From the IMG/VR virus record IMGVR_UViG_3300009184_000180, positions 1-26,138 of that record: a DNA stretch of 26,138 nt; one strand, written 5' to 3'. The notes beneath the pieces were generated by a model. That model had not been told where the DNA came from, searched no databases, and was given only the letters and a program-made list of their open reading frames with translations. Below, piece by piece: positions 4,338 to 18,026 of this stretch (the stretch's first letter is position 1; every line of letters starts with the position of its first letter). Source of the DNA: a virus. Both the position numbers and the translations under genes were made by a program.

Positions 4338-6425
4338 TTAGAAGGGCATTGTTATTGGGCTACTTGCATTGTTTGTAGAGTATGGTCCGAGAGAACCATT
4401 TGTCTGAGCCCCGCAACATAACACCTTACCGTTACTCAAAAGAATTCTTAAAGCCACATAACCATAAGAATTATCAACACCGTCGGCCGTTATATCCACG
4501 ATAGATTGTCCATTCGTATTCACCTTGGCAAAACCCCAAGTCGGTAGTTGTGTTGTCGATGCCCCCCTGCCTAGTTGGCCCCAATCGTTTCTACCAGCAC
4601 TATAGAGGAATCCGTTAGAAGAAAGAACATAAGTCGAAAAATAATTATTATTCCCAACTACTACAACTTTTTGGGCAGCCCCGAGAGAAGCGGGGTCATA
4701 AGTCTTAGTGAAAGTTGAATTAACGGTAGCTGTAGCCCCACCAGAACCGTTGGCCCCAAAGTTTCCATGCCCATTATATCCGGCCATCCATAAAGAACCA
4801 TCAGTTTTTTTCAAAACTGTGTAGCTGAAGCCGTTGTCATTCCCTTGGGGTACATAAATATCGGAAACCCCAGTTTGAACCATTGTCGCGTATCCCGAGT
4901 TAGTATCAGTTACAGTTCCATTTCCTAACTGACCGTAATTATTGTACCCAGACGTGTAGACTTGCCCTGAAGCTGTCAACATAACCGTGTGACCACCACT
5001 TCCGTTCGTCGAGCCGAGAATCTTTGTTACTTTTCCTTCTGCCCCCGCTCCTAGGGGGACACCTGCCGATTTGAGATAATAGTTTAAAGCGGTCATGGCA
5101 GTTTGGTTACCCTGACTTAACTGACCATATCCGTTATACCCAGAGCACAAAACTTTCCCATCGTCAGCCCCCAGAGGACTGCCTAAATAAATTCCGCTTG
5201 CGTAATTATTTCCCCAAACATAAGCGTCAGAAAACAGTTTTGTTCCCCCAATTCTGAGCGGTGAGGTTATAGTCGTCTCAGTTCTTCCGAGTTGTTTATC
5301 GCTGTTACTGCCCCACCCATAGGTTTCTCCAGTTGGGGTAATTGCAACGACCGTTTCATAAGTATATTGAGATAGTCTTAATTTAAGTATAGGCAGATTG
5401 TTGAAAGAAGATTGGGGAATCGGGGTAAACATCGTAGAATCGGCTGTAGAACCTAACCCCATGCAACCGTCTCCCCCCGCCCCCGCGGCGTATAGTATTC
5501 CCTGATTAGACAGGACATAAGAAGTTCTCCAACCGGCGAAAACAGCGTGAGCTGCTGGGAAAACATCCCCAACTCCAGAAGAATTTGCGTTAAAAGTGCA
5601 TTCAACTGGGAAGCTTACATCCGAATTACTAGACCCTATCGCGTTTTTGTAGCTATAGTTACCCCCAGTTACTTTGACCTTTCTGTCTTGGGTTATAAAA
5701 AAAGATCCTCTGTAGGATCCAAAATTACCATATGCGTTAAAAGTATTGCAAAGACCATTGGTGCAACCATACGCCACGGCTTTTGCGCTTACTCCCGTAC
5801 CTGTGTCAATAGTTACGGAGGGAGTAATTAAATAACCAGAACCGGGATTAGTGATTGTAACGGAAGAAACCGATCCCGCAGTTAAAACTGCGATTCCGGT
5901 TGCTGTATCCCCAGTAGGTGAAGCAGTAAAACTAACTGCTGGAACAGTTGTATACCCAGAACCTTGATTGTAGACAACAACATTCTCCACCGAACCAGAA
6001 AATATAACAGCAGTTCCAGGTCTTGCCGTCCCTGCGTTTTCAACAAAAGTACGATCGGGTTCACCAAAGTTGGAGATACGCAAAGAACTGGCCGCCAACT
6101 TTATGGCAGTTACAGCTCCGTCTGCTAGTTTTGGAGTTGTAACTGCAAGATCAGAGAGTTTTCCGGTAGACACGGAAATATTGCGAATGTGATTTGTGGT
6201 GACCGCTCTTTCCGAGTCAACGGATGCGCTGGAACTCAAAACATCTGCGGTTACTGCGTTTCCGGCAAGTTGCAAAGTCCCAATTGAATAGTTTGCGGGA
6301 AGAAACATCCCAGCATTTTTAGCGACTAGAAATGAAATACTGTAAGTGCTTGCCCCCTGAACAATTGGAAAGATATCTGTTAAATTAGCCGTAGAGGCTG
6401 CAGGTAATTGGGATATCCTAGGCAT
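4338..6425 (-). CDS. Tail fibre with RCC1-type beta-propeller domain
   Basis: A protein of 695 residues. Residues 1-40 (MPRISQLPAAS...DIFPIVQG) match the short N-terminal attachment module of many phage fibres. Residues 60-112 hold LA-V-T-x-KLA repeats typical of fibre shafts. Residues 148-215 hold two GSGY-x-x-x-P-x-V units. Residues about 301-682 hold RCC1-like repeats, each a strand pair followed by a GYNxxGQLGxG-type loop: around 310, 366, 425, 487, 545, 606 and 666, with a weaker one near 248. Seven blades equals the usual RCC1 propeller. The predicted role is carbohydrate or protein receptor binding at the cell surface; the specific ligand is unknown. The ATG at 6425 has no clear Shine-Dalgarno site. 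The domain content is visible directly; receptor binding is inferred. Confidence 0.85.
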   Translation of the reverse strand: MPRISQLPAASTANLTDIFPIVQGASTYSISFLVAKNAGMFLPANYSIGTLQLAGNAVTADVLSSSASVDSERAVTTNHIRNISVSTGKLSDLAVTTPKLADGAVTAIKLAASSLRISNFGEPDRTFVENAGTARPGTAVIFSGSVENVVVYNQGSGYTTVPAVSFTASPTGDTATGIAVLTAGSVSSVTITNPGSGYLITPSVTIDTGTGVSAKAVAYGCTNGLCNTFNAYGNFGSYRGSFFITQDRKVKVTGGNYSYKNAIGSSNSDVSFPVECTFNANSSGVGDVFPAAHAVFAGWRTSYVLSNQGILYAAGAGGDGCMGLGSTADSTMFTPIPQSSFNNLPILKLRLSQYTYETVVAITPTGETYGWGSNSDKQLGRTETTITSPLRIGGTKLFSDAYVWGNNYASGIYLGSPLGADDGKVLCSGYNGYGQLSQGNQTAMTALNYYLKSAGVPLGAGAEGKVTKILGSTNGSGGHTVMLTASGQVYTSGYNNYGQLGNGTVTDTNSGYATMVQTGVSDIYVPQGNDNGFSYTVLKKTDGSLWMAGYNGHGNFGANGSGGATATVNSTFTKTYDPASLGAAQKVVVVGNNNYFSTYVLSSNGFLYSAGRNDWGQLGRGASTTQLPTWGFAKVNTNGQSIVDITADGVDNSYGYVALRILLSNGKVLCCGAQTNGSLGPYSTNNASSPITMPF

Positions 6426-9226: not shown

Positions 9227-9637
9227 CTAGTCTTTAATAACAGCCCAGTTATCCCGCCATTTTGAATTAGGTTCCAAGTAGATAGACTTGGTTTTAGGCA
9301 TCTTAGCTCGAGGCATCACAAATAAAGCGTCTTGCGTGATATGGTAAAAGATAAAAGTATCGCAATCGCTCCGGCTATAAATACTCTTAGCTTTATGTGT
9401 GTTCATCCTAGATGCCCACCCATATCCAGGACCCTTAACCGCTAAGAACTTGATCTTTCTCCTACGTTGATCTTCGTTACCAATGGTCGACTTGACTTGG
9501 ATACGGTGGAGTTTACCGCCCCAGTCTGATACTAAGTCGTATCCAGAATCAAATACTGGGAGGCTAACTAGGAAACCGTGTTCCAATAACTTGGCAGAAA
9601 CTCGTTGTACCCCAACAGCACCAATTCTTAAACTCAT
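9227..9637 (-). CDS. PD-(D/E)XK-type endonuclease
   Basis: A protein of 136 residues with the layout of a compact PD-(D/E)XK nuclease: an N-terminal helix (GAVGVQRVSAKLLEHGF), then YDLVSD with the candidate acidic residue Asp34, then a strand with IQVKST, where Gln47 and Lys49 occupy the catalytic E/Q-x-K position. The IQVK(S/T)T variant occurs in the PDDEXK_5-like group, which includes the intron-encoded I-Ssp6803I. A later DCDTFIFY strand supports the fold. The ATG at 9637 overlaps the endolysin stop as ATGA and has an AAAGGA site 7 nt upstream, so it is co-translated with the lysis genes. Possible roles are a free-standing homing-type nuclease, a host-DNA nuclease, or a DNA-processing enzyme; the sequence does not choose among them. 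Confidence 0.75.
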   Translation of the reverse strand: MSLRIGAVGVQRVSAKLLEHGFLVSLPVFDSGYDLVSDWGGKLHRIQVKSTIGNEDQRRRKIKFLAVKGPGYGWASRMNTHKAKSIYSRSDCDTFIFYHITQDALFVMPRAKMPKTKSIYLEPNSKWRDNWAVIKD

Positions 9638-10191
9638 AGCCAGTCCTTTGCTAACAGGGAACCGAGAAGACGACGACGTCGATAGACCCCATCTCCGTCT
9701 CTACTACCCCCGTTGTTGGTGTTTCCCTCAATCGTTATGGCAAAATCGCCGGATACTCTTTCGATTAATCCCGTGTGCCCCACTCTTTTAAGGCTTTGAA
9801 AATAGATCCCGAAGGTATCTGCTTCGGTGGGTAGTCGACCACGCCCTCGATCCCAGTTCGGGTTTTTGACGAAATCTGGAGACCACGCACTTCTTGGGTA
9901 GGGATTACGATCTCGCCCGAGGGCAGAGTCGCCAACCCAGACGACGTAAGCCGCGCACCACGGGGCGCCCGTCCCTTCGAGTCCGACGCTTTTGAGGATT
10001 TCTTCGACTTCTTTCCCGTCGTTCTTTCCTGTTGCTTCTTTGATTCCGATTGTTGATTTCGCAAATGATATGATCTTTCCGCGAGCACCACCTTGCGGGT
10101 CAGGACTTCCCATTCCAAGTCCTCCAGAGAGAAGCAGCGTCGCAAAACCCAGAGTTGGAAGGATCGAAACATTTATGAACCTCGGGTGCAC
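9634..10191 (-). CDS. CHAP/NlpC-P60-type endolysin, two possible starts
   Basis: A cysteine peptidase-like cell-wall hydrolase. With the GTG start at 10191 it has 185 residues; candidate catalytic residues are Cys79 (GAPWCAAYVVWVG), His139 (VGHTGLIE) and Asn157 (EGNTN). The domain spans about residues 38-170 and ends with a basic RRRR patch. The long start adds a weakly hydrophobic Gly/Leu-rich segment (residues 7-26), like a signal or signal-arrest-release anchor. A second in-frame ATG at 10113 has GGAGG 7 nt upstream, a far better site than the GTG, and gives a 159-residue soluble form. Long and short forms may both be made. The long start overlaps the holin-candidate gene by 19 nt. It would cleave peptidoglycan peptide or amide bonds; the exact bond cannot be read from sequence. 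Confidence 0.85.
   Translation of the reverse strand: MHPRFINVSILPTLGFATLLLSGGLGMGSPDPQGGARGKIISFAKSTIGIKEATGKNDGKEVEEILKSVGLEGTGAPWCAAYVVWVGDSALGRDRNPYPRSAWSPDFVKNPNWDRGRGRLPTEADTFGIYFQSLKRVGHTGLIERVSGDFAITIEGNTNNGGSRDGDGVYRRRRLLGSLLAKDWL
10113..10125 (-). promoter_or_regulatory. Internal Shine-Dalgarno and ATG of the endolysin
   Basis: On the minus strand, GGAGG (10125-10121) precedes an in-frame ATG (10113-10111) by 7 nt within the endolysin frame. It is stronger than the site before the GTG at 10191, where no purine-rich match is visible. It either marks the true start or a second start that yields a form lacking the hydrophobic N-terminus. Confidence 0.6.
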
Positions 10192-10517
10192 AAGGCAAAT
10201 GTAATCAAAAGTCCAATGAAGAGATAGACCAATAGCTTGGCTTTCGTCTCGGGGCGAAGGTTAAGGAAATCATCGGCAAACGCTTCGGTGTCCAGATACT
10301 TGTCGAATGGGGCCCAGTCAAAAGAAATGACCAACCAAACCACGAATACACCAAGCAAAAACTTGACGGTTCCGAACACCAGCAAATGCAGGGCTCCGAT
10401 ATCTATAACGCCCGCTGTGGGGTCGATATGTTGAAGGAGGGGTCCGAGCCCAAAGAACAGACCAAGAGCCCCTAAAAGGGCTATTAGACCCTGCACGTTG
10501 GTCTTAAGGAAGTTCAC
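10173..10517 (-). CDS. Candidate holin (three membrane segments)
   Basis: A small membrane protein of 114 residues with three predicted membrane segments: about residues 9-28 (GLIALLGALGLFFGLGPLL), 43-66 (LLVFGTVKFLLGVFVVWLVIS) and 94-110 (LLVYLFIGLLITFALC), separated by an acidic loop (KYLDTEAFADDF). Size, topology and a place just before an endolysin and after a spanin candidate make it the best holin candidate here. The frame opens with TTG at 10520, but GTG at 10517 forms a GTGA overlap with the stop of the spanin candidate, so I take GTG; a GGGG run lies about 9 nt upstream. No holin family is recognised by sequence. The XhlA-like protein further upstream is an alternative or partner in membrane lysis. 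Confidence 0.72.
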   Translation of the reverse strand: MNFLKTNVQGLIALLGALGLFFGLGPLLQHIDPTAGVIDIGALHLLVFGTVKFLLGVFVVWLVISFDWAPFDKYLDTEAFADDFLNLRPETKAKLLVYLFIGLLITFALCTRGS

Positions 10518-10900
10518 CAAGGAATCCCCACAAACTTCCTAGCTACGAACATGATACCACTAAAGATAAACCCCCTGAAGATCCATAGCCCTAAAGCAAT
10601 AAGAGCACCTCGATAGATCCAAAGCTCTTTCAAGGCTTTCCGTTGCTTGGCCTTCCAATCGTTGGCTTCTTTGGCGATACGTTCGTAGTCTCCAGCTTGA
10701 GCTTCGCAGGCAGCTTGAGCAGAGGAGAGTTGAGACTTTAGACTTCCAAACTCCTTCTTGATAGCGGGTAGATCGCCAGAGTTGACCGCCTGTTCTACGG
10801 CGTCGACCTTACGGGTGACTCCACCAAATTCTGGAGAACCTTTGGGTTTAATTGTGGAACAACCAACCAATAACAATAACGGTAGGATTAATATTCTCAT
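10514..10900 (-). CDS. Candidate unimolecular spanin (lipoprotein with C-terminal membrane segment)
   Basis: A protein of 128 residues starting MRILILPLLLLVGC. Residues 1-14 are a lipoprotein signal with lipobox L-V-G-Cys14. Residues 29-93 form a Lys/Glu/Ala-rich helical, coiled-coil-like stretch (VDAVEQAVNSG, AIKKEFGSLKSQL, ERIAKEANDWKAKQRKALKEL). Residues 98-120 are hydrophobic (GALIALGLWIF, GFIFSGIMFVA), interrupted by Arg109. Outer-membrane lipid anchor plus C-terminal inner-membrane segment is the layout of a u-spanin such as T1 gp11 (about 130 residues), which joins the two membranes in the last step of lysis of Gram-negative hosts. The frame opens upstream to 10996, but only the ATG at 10900 gives a clean signal peptide and avoids overlap with the XhlA-like gene. 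The helical middle differs from the beta-rich T1 protein. Confidence 0.75.
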   Translation of the reverse strand: MRILILPLLLLVGCSTIKPKGSPEFGGVTRKVDAVEQAVNSGDLPAIKKEFGSLKSQLSSAQAACEAQAGDYERIAKEANDWKAKQRKALKELWIYRGALIALGLWIFRGFIFSGIMFVARKFVGIPW

Positions 10901-10928: not shown

Positions 10929-11126
10929 TTACGAACCAAAAATATGCTTCCTAATAACGGGCCCAAACCAAGATACACAAGCAATGAGAGACCCAATAAT
11001 AGCCGACTGTTTCCACCATGCTTTCTCTACTGAACGAATACGACCCTCGTGGTCTTCTAAATGGGATAGGGCAGTATCAAGTTTTGTTTCGATACGAGCC
11101 AGTCTTTCGTTGTCTTTAGGGGCCAT
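10929..11126 (-). CDS. XhlA-like small membrane protein
   Basis: A protein of 65 residues: a charged coiled-coil-like N-terminal part (NERLARIETKLDTALSHLEDHEGRI, in two pieces over residues 6-30) and one C-terminal membrane segment (about residues 41-59, SAIIGSLIACVSWFGPVI) ending in a basic tail. This layout is that of the haemolysin XhlA / phage holin-accessory group, where the N-terminal helix lies in the cytoplasm. It starts with ATG at 11126, 1 nt after the previous stop (TAATATG). It lies first in the lysis cassette, 28 bp before the spanin candidate, so a role in membrane permeabilisation or holin regulation is likely but inferred. The three-segment protein at 10173-10517 remains the main holin candidate. 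Confidence 0.72.
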   Translation of the reverse strand: MAPKDNERLARIETKLDTALSHLEDHEGRIRSVEKAWWKQSAIIGSLIACVSWFGPVIRKHIFGS

Positions 11127-11127
11127 A

Positions 11128-11460
11128 TTAACCCCAAGGCAAAGGTTGAGTTTGTGGGGTTGGGGGAGGATTTAAAATGGAATTAATCTGCCCGTCGATA
11201 CAAGCATAAATAGAATTGACCCCGTTTTCCCCGAGTGCTGACTGAATCCATCCAATAACTTGTTGTTCGGTCAAATCTTCATAGGGGGTAAATTCTCCAC
11301 CCGTGTAAGTAAATTTTTGTGCTCCGCTAATGCCAGCAATTGTTTGGTCTTTCGCCCCCGTAACATTGTACACTGCAAGAACAACAACATCAGTTTCTCC
11401 ACCCTGTTTAGGTAGAACACTCATGCTAGTAACTTTCCAAGTGAAGATTGTATTGCTCAT
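11128..11460 (-). CDS. Small phage structural-region protein of unknown function
   Basis: A protein of 110 residues: a beta-rich N-terminal part (TIFTWKVTSMSVLP, ETDVVVLAVYNVTG, QKFTYTGGEFTPY), then a helix (LTEQQVIGWIQSALG), a second helix (VNSIYACIDGQINSIL) and a proline-rich tail ending LPWG. This order (FTWxV strand, TPYxxLTExQVxxWV helix, C-terminal LPW) recurs in small proteins of many aquatic phages, usually of unknown function. The ATG at 11460 overlaps the stop of the fibre gene as ATGA, which indicates coupled translation. No Shine-Dalgarno site is seen. Position between a fibre and the lysis cassette suggests a virion or assembly role, but no activity can be claimed. Confidence 0.75.
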   Translation of the reverse strand: MSNTIFTWKVTSMSVLPKQGGETDVVVLAVYNVTGAKDQTIAGISGAQKFTYTGGEFTPYEDLTEQQVIGWIQSALGENGVNSIYACIDGQINSILNPPPTPQTQPLPWG

Positions 11461-12947
11461 GCGTTATAATACGGAATTTGGTAAGCATTTGCTCCAATGC
11501 GAACACGAATATATCCAACTGGATTAGCAGTCAGAGCACTCGCTCCTCCATTTGCTCCGATATTTGTTTTGGTTGCGAGGGTGGAAGCAAATGCAATTTC
11601 TCCGTCAACTTGTGCTAAGGCGCCACTACCAAGAACAATACAATTAGACCGTGCTCCCGCATTGACATCTGCGGTGGCCCCGATAATAATATTATTTGAC
11701 CCAGTAGTAAGTGTGTCGCCAGCTTGAGCCCCTAAAGCAGTATTACTTGGCCCAGTAGCATAAAAAAGTGTATCAAATCCGCAAGCGGTGTTATTATTAG
11801 AAGTTTGATTTGTGTACAAAGAACCTTGTCCCATAGCCGTATTATTAGATCCAGTTGTTAGATTAAACAAAGGACTATTTCCGATAGCCGTATTATTTTG
11901 TCCACTTGTGTTAACCCGAAGAGAACCTTGTCCTATAGCCGTATTGTTAACCCCAGTTGTATTAGCACCGAGACTATTAACCCCGTAAGCGGTAAGTGAG
12001 GACCCGGTTGTGTTAGCAGATAAAGAATTTACCCCGCAAGCGGTGTTGTTTCCCCCACTTGTATTCGCAAAAAGAGCGTTAGTCCCAATGGCGGTATTAT
12101 TGCTTCCAGATGTGTTAGCGTTTAAAGCTGAGGAGCCAACAGCAACATTCGAAGCAATACTACTATTGCCTCTGCTTAAAGAAAGCCCGTTTACTTGACC
12201 ACACGCGAACTCATTAGAAGCTCCTCGGAGGACAATCGTACTAGCAGTGTTAACTGAGGTAGCAGTAGTGGCTGAATTCGAAACTTTGCCAGCCGTAGAA
12301 ATTGTGGCTAGTTTTGTATCCGCAATTGAACCTGCGGGGATTGTCGAAGCTATTGAGATATTAGCGGACCCATTGAAAGAAGTTGCTGTTCCGGTTATAT
12401 CGCCAGAAATCGCAATTGTCCTAGCAGTTGCGAGAGTAGTTGCCGTGCTGGCGTTACCAGTTAAAGACCCTGTGATCGCCCCAGTCACATCCAAGGTTCC
12501 AGCAACAGTCGTGTTTCCAGTCGAGGCAGCAACGGTAAACCTATTTGCGGCTACCGCAAAATTGCCACTACAGCTAAGCGTAGTTGAAGATACGGCCCCA
12601 CTGAAAACACCGGAAGCAGCAGAAAATCCGCCGAACACAGTCGTAGCCCCGGTAGCGGAGTCCACGGTAAATCTATTAGTATTGACAGAAAAATTACCTG
12701 CAACTGTTGTAACTCCGGTAGTCCCATTAACTGTAAATTTACTGCTACCAACAGCACCTACATCAAAATTACCGGTGCTCCTAAAAGTACCAGTTATTGT
12801 TGCCCCCACAGTCCCTAAAGCAAGAGCTGAATTATTGTTAACTCCGTCCTGAATCGTGGTTTGCGTACTACCGATAAAATTAGCTGAGGTCGTCGTTAAA
12901 AGCCGACCATATGTAGAAGCAATGGTATTTCCAGTTAAAGCTGCCAT
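11457..12947 (-). CDS. Tail fibre with YadA-like 17-residue repeats
   Basis: A protein of 496 residues. Residues about 59-151 contain three units of the form GNFxV...FTVxxxTGxTTVxG. Residues 152-240 are a Thr/Ala/Ser-rich linker with DITGTATSFNGSANI and GSIADTKLATISTAGKV, typical of fibre shafts. Residues 266-428 hold ten imperfect repeats built on NNTAIG-x-x-x-L-x-x-NT-x-G with a period of 17 residues, the left-handed beta-roll seen in YadA-type trimeric adhesins. The C-terminus ends GYIRVRIGANAYQIPYYNA, a common phage fibre ending; no S74 peptidase chaperone is present. The ATG at 12947 has a TAGGAGGAA site 6-7 nt upstream, so strong translation is expected. It is probably trimeric and involved in adsorption; the receptor is unknown. 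Confidence 0.87.
   Translation of the reverse strand: MAALTGNTIASTYGRLLTTTSANFIGSTQTTIQDGVNNNSALALGTVGATITGTFRSTGNFDVGAVGSSKFTVNGTTGVTTVAGNFSVNTNRFTVDSATGATTVFGGFSAASGVFSGAVSSTTLSCSGNFAVAANRFTVAASTGNTTVAGTLDVTGAITGSLTGNASTATTLATARTIAISGDITGTATSFNGSANISIASTIPAGSIADTKLATISTAGKVSNSATTATSVNTASTIVLRGASNEFACGQVNGLSLSRGNSSIASNVAVGSSALNANTSGSNNTAIGTNALFANTSGGNNTACGVNSLSANTTGSSLTAYGVNSLGANTTGVNNTAIGQGSLRVNTSGQNNTAIGNSPLFNLTTGSNNTAMGQGSLYTNQTSNNNTACGFDTLFYATGPSNTALGAQAGDTLTTGSNNIIIGATADVNAGARSNCIVLGSGALAQVDGEIAFASTLATKTNIGANGGASALTANPVGYIRVRIGANAYQIPYYNA
11664..12152 (-). repeat. Ten imperfect 51-bp coding repeats
   Basis: Within the fibre gene, the N-x-T-A-[IMCL]-G core recurs at residues 266, 283, 300, 317, 334, 351, 368, 385, 401 and 418, i.e. 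every 51 nt with one 48-nt step. The DNA repeats are degenerate, so the array is old or under selection for protein shape rather than a recent slippage expansion. Confidence 0.8.
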
Positions 12948-15953: not shown

Positions 15954-16649
15954 CTATGCTAAAAGTTTATCCAGTTCCTGTCGGTTGTTATCTATCCCAC
16001 CCCAAGACCAAAACTGCCTAACCGTATCCTTATCCTGTTTAGGATCTCTCCACTCAAACTTATCTCTATGGTGCTTCCAAGCATATGCCCCTAGGGTATT
16101 ATACTCGCTAAACCTACGATCTGGACGAGTAGCAACGAAAGTGTCAAAAGGCACTTTATGGGTAGCCTGTAAAAAATCCCTCATCTCCTTGTATATCCAT
16201 CTAGGGAAGATGTGTGGCGGACGACGCATAAACTCAAATTCGGGTTTCCAGCCTATAGCTTCCTGTACAATTGGTTGCCAAGGGCATTCTCCAATTTTAT
16301 CGTATGGCTCGTAGTATATAATAGCTTTCCCCTTATGGATGAAATCCTTGGGAGAGACATCGTGCAACCAGACGGTATCGGAATCAATATGGCATATGAA
16401 GTCGGCATCAGAGTAGAGATCAGCGTTTAGCTTGGTTACTTGCTGACCCAAATAATCCTCTGCGTACCTAGGGCAGATATGTACTTTTTCCAAGGTAAGA
16501 TGATTCAGTTCGTGTTGGTCACCATGCGGTACCACAATATGGATCTGGCGAAATCCCTTAGCTGACTTGGCACAGGACTTAAGACAGTAGGATAACCACT
16601 CAAAGTCTTTCTTGTAACTACGGATGAATAGGTCTACAGAGGCTTGCAT
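15954..16649 (-). CDS. Glycosyltransferase, DxD type (DUF6492-like)
   Basis: A protein of 231 residues with a GT-A-like layout: an N-terminal strand (VDLFIRSYKKD), a second strand (QIHIVVPHG), and ICHIDSDTVW (residues 85-94), where Asp89-Ser-Asp91 is the metal/nucleotide-sugar-binding DxD. The arrangement (IRSYKxD at the start, HIDSD in the middle, FSEYNTLG near residues 180-187) fits the DUF6492 glycosyltransferase group. It would transfer a sugar to an unknown acceptor. The ATG at 16649 overlaps the methyltransferase gene by 16 nt; three overlapping sugar-related genes form one unit. It ends just before the capsid promoter. The target may be a virion protein, a host surface glycan or nucleic acid; position next to the capsid gene favours, but does not prove, the first. 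Confidence 0.8.
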   Translation of the reverse strand: MQASVDLFIRSYKKDFEWLSYCLKSCAKSAKGFRQIHIVVPHGDQHELNHLTLEKVHICPRYAEDYLGQQVTKLNADLYSDADFICHIDSDTVWLHDVSPKDFIHKGKAIIYYEPYDKIGECPWQPIVQEAIGWKPEFEFMRRPPHIFPRWIYKEMRDFLQATHKVPFDTFVATRPDRRFSEYNTLGAYAWKHHRDKFEWRDPKQDKDTVRQFWSWGGIDNNRQELDKLLA

Positions 16650-17287
16650 AAAAGATCGTATTGGGGTCCTTCCTCGGGCGGGAATGATTGTAATTCGTAC
16701 CCAAGTTCAGATCGTAGATAAGTGATTAATGAGATCGGTGATTCGCCTCGTTGTTGTAAAGCGTGTTCGTTGACCTCGACCCACATGACTGGACGATGCT
16801 TTGTGATAGTTTTCTTAGCTCCCTTCAAAGCGGATACTTCAAATCCTTCTACGTCCAACTTAAAGAAATCCAGCCGAGGTAGATCGTACGAGTCCAGAGT
16901 TACCACAAATACAACCCTATCCCCAGAATCAGTTATACGACTAGAACCAGCGTTATCGGCTACGGAAAAGAACTGGCTACTTGGTTTATTGCTAAGTCCA
17001 GCTTTGACCGTTATGGCCGAAGGACAGTTGTAAACTAAACACTCGTAGGCAGAAATGTTGGGTTCGAAGGCGTAGACTCTCCCAGTAGAACCTACAGCCC
17101 TAACATAGGCGACGGTGTGATCACCAATGAAAGCCCCAGCGTCGACGACGTAATCGCCATCTTTGATATGCTTTAGGATAATCGGGAGAGAATATTCGTC
17201 GTGATCCAACTTCCCGGTCTCTTCGACCCAGCGGGAAATATGCGAATCGTTTTCTAGTACCGCAACGTTATTCGGTAGGATTTTCAC
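16634..17287 (-). CDS. FkbM-family SAM-dependent methyltransferase
   Basis: A protein of 217 residues with the full FkbM motif set: VVDAGAFIGDHT (residues 47-58, SAM-binding loop), VYAFEPN (71-77, acidic end of strand 2), LDFFKLDVEGFEVSALKGA (139-157) and RPVMWVEVNE (165-174). FkbM enzymes O-methylate sugars and similar hydroxyl groups, so it probably caps or decorates the glycan built by its two glycosyltransferase neighbours. The start is GTG at 17287 (GTGAAAATC), 20 nt inside the upstream gene, with AGGA about 9 nt before it. Overlaps on both sides show the three genes are translated as a unit. The substrate is unknown. Confidence 0.87.
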   Translation of the reverse strand: MKILPNNVAVLENDSHISRWVEETGKLDHDEYSLPIILKHIKDGDYVVDAGAFIGDHTVAYVRAVGSTGRVYAFEPNISAYECLVYNCPSAITVKAGLSNKPSSQFFSVADNAGSSRITDSGDRVVFVVTLDSYDLPRLDFFKLDVEGFEVSALKGAKKTITKHRPVMWVEVNEHALQQRGESPISLITYLRSELGYELQSFPPEEGPQYDLLCKPL

Positions 17288-18026
17288 TTTCAGGTTTCCT
17301 ACGCGTTTTACGTTTTTTCGGTTTAGCCTCAGGAATTTCGAATGCTTCTACCTTTTTTGGCATCCGGCGTTCACGAAGTCTTTCAATCAATGTGCCGTCC
17401 TTATTCTGATGAAACAACAAAGCTTCTTTACTAACCATAGCATCAACGCTAGCCTGATCTGGGAATGTAAAATTACGCCCCTCGTCTTTACGCCAAACGT
17501 GTTGAATAGATTTTGTCCAATTGGCTTGCCCAACAATCTGCTCAGCACCGACAACGTCAAACGCAGCAAGATCGGCATGAATAAGATTAAACGCTCGTTC
17601 CATCACGTTCTTTGGATAGATAGCATTACCACTCATATGCTCGGGGGTCCCTTCGACTTTGACCTGAGCGCCCATAAAATACTGACCGCAAGTACGGTAC
17701 TCTGAATCTAAAAAATCCAGCCACCCTGGCGCTAAAGGGATACAGTCTGGTTCACACCAAAAATAAGCCTCGGGGTTTGTCCCCCAAGTAATATGTTGAG
17801 CCACCCGCTTGAACAAATGATTTGGGCTCATAGGCCAGCCACGCTCGTCCTCATCATGCGGGACATACAGTTCGTAATGCCGACTGATTTCGGTTGGGTT
17901 CGCTACTCTACGGGCACAAGCAACCATCAAGCGATGGCTACCGATTCCTCCAAGTTCTTCAACCCAATCCACCCAGCGAATCGCCTGCTCCCGATCCTGA
18001 GGACCGACTGGCAGTACGACGAGCAT
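17268..18026 (-). CDS. Glycosyltransferase-like protein with basic C-terminal tail
   Basis: A protein of 252 residues. It begins with a strand (MLVVLPVGPQD) and helix (REQAIRWVDWVEEL), has a second strand (HRLMVACAR), and carries YFWCEPDCIPL at residues 88-98, where Glu92-Pro-Asp94 takes the place of a DxD motif of GT-A enzymes. Later motifs include a VVGAEQIVGQANW segment and LLFHQNKDG (203-211), whose His could bind the sugar nucleotide or metal. The last 25 residues are strongly basic and Pro-rich (KPKKRKTRRKPE), perhaps for binding nucleic acid or an acidic partner. The ATG overlaps the scaffold stop as TAATG, which ties its translation to the head genes. Acceptor and donor are unknown. 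Confidence 0.75.
   Translation of the reverse strand: MLVVLPVGPQDREQAIRWVDWVEELGGIGSHRLMVACARRVANPTEISRHYELYVPHDEDERGWPMSPNHLFKRVAQHITWGTNPEAYFWCEPDCIPLAPGWLDFLDSEYRTCGQYFMGAQVKVEGTPEHMSGNAIYPKNVMERAFNLIHADLAAFDVVGAEQIVGQANWTKSIQHVWRKDEGRNFTFPDQASVDAMVSKEALLFHQNKDGTLIERLRERRMPKKVEAFEIPEAKPKKRKTRRKPESENPTE

Follow-up and report, generated by a model that had tools for sequence, protein, structure and literature searches.

A candidate unimolecular spanin with a predicted coiled-coil periplasmic part in the lysis cassette of an uncultivated phage

Introduction

A unimolecular spanin (u-spanin) is defined in PMC6139136 by a lipobox combined with a C-terminal transmembrane domain (TMD). The survey describes beta structure as dominant in gp11 of phage T1 and its 28-member family. 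It suggests collapse via beta structure for u-spanins, as opposed to the coiled coils of two-component spanins, and compares the former to class II (beta), the latter to class I (helical) viral fusion proteins. The u-spanins catalogued there fall into 13 families, those of phi13:2, phi12:1 and Flavobacterium phage 11b being listed in its Table 5, and a periplasmic cysteine is given for none of the 58 (PMC6139136). A later review describes u-spanins as beta in their periplasmic domain, free of periplasmic cysteines and lacking amphipathic regions (PMC7830690).

Here we analyse an ORF in a 26 kb virus record from IMG/VR (26,138 nucleotides; the whole stretch is called the window below), in which the structural genes are mostly on the same strand as the ORF. 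An earlier note had proposed that this ORF encodes a one-protein spanin, with a lipobox cysteine at residue 14, a hydrophobic C-terminal segment and, in contrast to the beta-rich middle of T1-type proteins, a coiled-coil-like middle.

Results

The gene and its family

The candidate helical u-spanin gene occupies window positions 10514-10900 on the minus strand. It reads from an ATG at 10900 to 10514 and encodes a 128-aa protein, MRILILPLLLLVGCSTIKPKGSPEFGGVTRKVDAVEQAVNSGDLPAIKKEFGSLKSQLSSAQAACEAQAGDYERIAKEANDWKAKQRKALKELWIYRGALIALGLWIFRGFIFSGIMFVARKFVGIPW, with the termini MRILILPLLLLVGC14STIKP...KALKELWIYRGALIALGLWIFR109GFIFSGIMFVARKFVGIPW. An upstream TTG is an alternative start in the close clade; if used, it would place the lipobox cysteine at residue 27 and leave the lipoprotein reading unchanged. 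A single-sequence scan of the IMG/VR viral contigs with six different patterns gave 56 relatives, and an aligned-family scan gave at least 125 related loci, 80 of which were kept; since KALKELW served as the pattern of the second scan, its invariance there is partly built in. Against ten close relatives, whose synonymous sites differ by up to about 60% and nonsynonymous sites by 1-4%, dN/dS of the gene is 0.025-0.041 (about 0.03). These values and the 125 related loci establish the ORF as a real gene under strong constraint.

Residue counts were made on 67 distinct mature sequences, 56 from near members and 11 from a distant clade. The lipobox cysteine is universal (67/67), which bears out Cys14, preceded here by LVG at residues 11-13 of a lipoprotein signal peptide (residues 1-14, window 10859-10900). 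The residue following it is Ser in 36, Thr in 15, Ala in 14, Phe in one and Leu in one, and Asp in none of the 67. In E. coli, lipoproteins with a residue other than Asp at this +2 position are sorted to the outer membrane; by this rule, which may differ in the host of the phage, the +2 Ser of the window protein predicts outer-membrane sorting. Conservation in the family peaks where the chain enters the membrane rather than in the coil; there the basic, Trp-containing motif W..KQ.KALKELW..R (window 10610-10657) is near-invariant. No variation is seen in either alignment at its W82, K85, Q86, K88, A89, L90, K91, E92, L93, W94 and R97, and it has undergone almost no nonsynonymous change among the close relatives. 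Family members are about 121-137 residues long; the member at one locus (L120, 2977-3603, plus strand) extends about 50 residues beyond the usual ...GVPW end, through a frameshift, a misassembly or a true extension.

Relatives were found neither in cultured phages (tblastn included), nor at the DNA level, nor in bacterial genomes, and for this reason no host is assigned; a terminase comparison gave no useful clue to it either. Profile searches of the spanin against PHROG, Pfam, NCBIfam and PDB returned weak coiled-coil matches only, none of which is counted as evidence of family; those to PHROG 'Rz-like spanin' families (best 0.00095) are expected of any coiled coil.

A heptad-patterned periplasmic part

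A heptad pattern runs through residues 47-97 (window 10610-10762) into the juxtamembrane helix. The best 42-residue heptad contrast in the window protein is 4.26, against 2.26+-0.55 in shuffles (p=0.003), and three divergent relatives gave p=0.03, 0.003 and 0.037. In averages of the three subfamilies a period-3.5 hydrophobicity signal was present throughout (reached by 46, 10 and 5 of 2000 shuffles), with its register to the juxtamembrane motif unchanged from one subfamily to the next. In 55 of the 67 distinct sequences a heptad core position is taken by a periplasmic cysteine, Cys65 in the window protein (10706-10708). It lies either 30 or 23 residues from the motif; the two spacings differ by exactly one heptad, and such an indel keeps the register, as a coiled coil demands. 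The heptad-contrast test is conservative, since lambda Rz, a known coiled coil, reached only p=0.18.

The u-spanin ORFs of T1, VpV262, SIO1, phi13:2, phi12:1 and 11b all lacked a heptad signal (p 0.20-0.97, 6/6); those other than T1 gp11 were chosen by a lipobox-plus-TM scan, and their match to the published u-spanin entries is likely rather than proven. Cellulophaga phage phi13:2 was weighed as a possible precedent for a helical u-spanin: the middle of its candidate ORF is free of Pro and Gly and helix-prone by eye, yet carries no significant heptad signal. AlphaFold placed helices at residues 26-40, 44-107 and 109-124 of the window protein, with no strands, at low confidence (pLDDT 63); in the distant clade it gave a single helix, 45-119, through periplasm and membrane segment (mean pLDDT 80, >90 over 71-110). 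The coiled-coil-like middle that had been noted, and its contrast with T1 gp11, are thus upheld by the heptad contrast, the periodicity and the helical models, and the periplasmic part is very probably a coiled coil and not beta. A disulfide bond joining two parallel chains through the core cysteine would be a natural reading, to which we give somewhat less than even weight.

The C-terminal segment and Arg109

A hydrophobic C-terminal segment (residues 98-120, window 10541-10609), the putative inner-membrane anchor, is present in all aligned members, as the earlier note would lead one to expect, and has a Kyte-Doolittle mean of 1.96 over residues 101-119 in the window protein. Arg109 (window 10574-10576), which the note had called odd, does lie in the middle of this segment. 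Among the 56 members that do not belong to the distant clade the position is Arg in 52 and Lys in four, and this basic residue is absent from all 11 distant members; it is therefore better regarded as a clade feature than as an oddity of one protein. Since the modelled helix of the window protein breaks at residue 108, a short membrane helix may reach its cytoplasmic end at Arg109, with an interfacial helix after it. A rough weighted estimate of insertion energy was marginal for Arg109 members (+0.2 to +0.95 kcal/mol, and -0.66 for one atypical member) and -4.0 kcal/mol for T1 gp11; for the distant clade, whose segment is clean and without a central Arg, most values fell below zero (+0.2 to -1.0 kcal/mol). 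In Arg109-type members the periplasmic flank equals or exceeds the cytoplasmic one in basic character, contrary to the positive-inside rule.

The alternative that fares best starts from these features. The protein could be a helical tether that does not span, held by its lipid in the outer membrane and by a basic juxtamembrane helix and a kinked, Arg-containing hairpin in the outer leaflet of the inner membrane. Marginal hydrophobicity with a central Arg or Lys in 56/56 members outside the distant clade, the helix break at 108 and the basic residues ahead of the segment would all fit such an arrangement. However, the distant clade combines a clean segment lacking the central Arg with a continuous, high-confidence helix, so that homologues would need differing topologies, and we consider a non-spanning tether unlikely. 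Location of the segment outside the membrane is only partly excluded, insertion being marginal where Arg109 is present and more favourable in the distant clade; in the models of both, the helix runs on into the segment. A full inner-membrane span is likely but not certain.

The lysis cassette

Downstream of the spanin gene, and overlapping its stop codon, lies a gene without family match (10173-10520, minus strand) whose product has three hydrophobic segments and is best read as a holin; it may act as a pinholin-like trigger. It is followed by a CHAP-type endolysin gene (9634-10191, minus strand; phrog_9589, 7.5e-20). This endolysin, like the CHAP endolysins of five relatives (L013, L014, L038, L041 and L045), begins with a Sec-signal-like or SAR-like hydrophobic segment, which makes export by the host probable, and the GH108 endolysins of the distant clade are without such a segment. 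On the other side of the spanin gene is a 65-aa XhlA/holin-like protein (10929-11126, minus strand; phrog_689 holin 0.01, phrog_5225 0.0006) consisting of a coil and a C-terminal hydrophobic segment, possibly an accessory lysis protein; coil-plus-TM proteins of 76-83 aa are encoded at the corresponding position in several relatives, L013, L014 and L034 among them.

The order spanin, candidate holin, endolysin is kept in 47/47 loci of the window's wider clade. The distant clade has other partner genes: a small membrane protein is encoded upstream and another membrane protein downstream, followed by a GH108 or phage-lysozyme endolysin. Over the whole set an endolysin gene lies downstream in 79 of the 80 kept loci, and in 79/79 of those with room for one, as the contig of the exception ends 468 bases past the gene. 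These endolysins are of the CHAP type at 66 loci, GH108 at 10 and phage lysozyme at three. The spanin gene has thus been kept while the endolysin was exchanged, and its conservation beside three unrelated types of peptidoglycan hydrolase is the strongest evidence that it would have a role in lysis.

Other genes of the window include one for a 695-aa protein of the structural region (4338-6425, minus strand), whose C-terminal half carries RCC1-like repeats (regulator of chromosome condensation; E 1.7e-26). A 496-aa protein (11457-12947, minus strand) has many degenerate NTSG.NNTA.G repeats resembling the head repeats of trimeric autotransporters and is a probable fibre. Between the capsid genes and those of the scaffold region, two glycosyltransferase-like ORFs flank a methyltransferase-family gene (15954-18026, minus strand; phrog_8156, 4.8e-22).

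Search for a second spanin

A strict six-frame scan of the window found no other plausible lipoprotein ORF, embedded Rz1-like ORFs included. A looser scan added one plus-strand lipobox ORF, antisense to the portal gene and without a membrane segment; across all six frames of the window the spanin ORF alone combines a plausible lipoprotein signal with a membrane segment. Four longer relatives (contigs of 64-72 kb, completeness not stated) held no conserved i-spanin/o-spanin pair, and the only lipoprotein common to them is the spanin gene product. Two of the four, both near relatives (G001, 50854-51006; G002, 49140-49292), encode a conserved 50-aa lipoprotein, MKWWW..ILIPAI.LGMSGCW.FEEDGWS.WNS.EPTL, about 22 kb away and far from the lysis genes; it was rejected as an o-spanin because of this distance, its lack of an i-spanin neighbour and its absence from the other two relatives. 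An Rz1-like ORF embedded in another frame was rejected as well, none being plausible in the window or conserved in the relatives. A separate spanin pair, which would have spoken against a single-protein system, was thus found neither in the window nor as a conserved feature of the four long relatives.

One could still suppose that the protein is half of a two-component spanin, namely the outer-membrane subunit, and that its partner in the inner membrane is a separate protein such as the XhlA-like one, which is adjacent and coil-rich and has similar genes upstream in several relatives. We regard this as very improbable: the hydrophobic segment of the XhlA-like protein is C-terminal, the opposite of an i-spanin, distant-clade members have a different small membrane protein at this place, and the window spanin candidate already has both anchors.

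Comparison with known spanins

T1 gp11 and the window family share the N-terminal lipobox, the C-terminal hydrophobic anchor, the place in the lysis cassette and a nearly equal periplasmic length (82-86 residues in the family, 83 in gp11). They differ in that the gp11 periplasmic part is predicted to be mainly beta, lacks a heptad signal and a periplasmic cysteine, and is joined to a much stronger TMD. No sequence similarity between the two proteins was found, and the family thus lacks both the beta-rich periplasmic part and the sequence similarity by which the T1 gp11 family is recognized. The Bacteroidetes-phage ORFs (Cellulophaga phi13:2 and phi12:1, Flavobacterium phage 11b), picked here by the lipobox-plus-TM scan alone, likewise have a lipobox and a C-terminal hydrophobic segment, and in phi12:1 and 11b the ORF directly follows the endolysin gene; they differ in showing neither significant heptad periodicity nor a periplasmic cysteine. 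Lambda Rz resembles the window protein in its coiled-coil helical periplasmic part and its periplasmic cysteines. Its TMD, however, is N-terminal and it has no lipobox, and Rz and Rz1 are both required, whereas the window protein has both anchors on one chain. An i-spanin has an N-terminal TMD and no lipobox, and an o-spanin is a lipoprotein that lacks a membrane segment and has an i-spanin partner; the window family conforms to neither.

Lpp/OprI proteins are also lipoproteins continuing into an Ala-rich helical zipper, and the window protein could be a lipoprotein of other function (superinfection exclusion of the Cor/Llp kind, or an Lpp-like envelope protein) that rides along with the lysis genes. 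Weak resemblances to Lpp/OprI (NF040598, E 0.0026, 18.2 bits, below the curated cutoff of 43) and, for two members, to Cor (0.075) would fit this. We find it very improbable, given the position beside three endolysin types in 79/79 loci and the hydrophobic segment at the C-terminus, a feature missing from both Lpp and Cor.

Discussion

As far as tested, the window family has the defining u-spanin topology and lies outside the T1 gp11 family, and we think it probable that the protein is a u-spanin with an alpha-helical, coiled-coil periplasmic part and a putative lysis function. The topology proposed earlier is supported by the lipobox in 67/67 sequences, the C-terminal segment and the lysis linkage, while spanning itself is supported in part. 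The suggestion of a separate u-spanin type holds insofar as the family is predicted to be helical, mostly bears a periplasmic cysteine and is not of the T1 family, from which it differs in predicted fold and in cysteine content; the comparison covered six u-spanin ORFs, and a helical build may also occur elsewhere among the 13 catalogued families.

How such a protein might act can be pictured as follows. Signal peptidase II would cut before Cys14, the cysteine would be lipidated, and the non-Asp +2 residue would direct the N-terminus to the outer membrane. Residues ~26-97 would make up a rod some 11 nm long (72 residues x 0.15 nm), the heptad core pairing molecules as a parallel coiled coil that a Cys65-Cys65 disulfide could lock. 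The helix would then pass through the near-invariant basic, Trp-rich juxtamembrane stretch into the C-terminal inner-membrane anchor. Intact peptidoglycan would cage these tethers; after holin and endolysin action they could cluster, zip or fold back and draw the two membranes together, so that these fuse and the outer membrane breaks, which is the role of lambda Rz/Rz1 or T1 gp11. A bolder proposal is that the family represents a second structural class of u-spanins, a single-chain coiled-coil fusogen forming a disulfide-lockable parallel dimer, with its helix unbroken into the inner-membrane anchor and with SNARE-like or class I-like zipping rather than beta-rich collapse; to this we give a little less than even weight.

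By joining u-spanin topology to a coiled-coil middle with a conserved cysteine in its core and to a near-invariant basic juxtamembrane helix, the family would break the division by which two-component spanins are class I-like and u-spanins class II-like. The motif W..KQ.KALKELW..R provides a recognizable mark for annotating spanins in uncultivated phages, and the family offers a one-gene system of about 121-137 residues for studying the fusion of two bacterial membranes by a coiled coil. If the reading is true, the outer-membrane step of lysis would in these phages be carried out by one protein, built unlike the best-studied u-spanin, that of T1.
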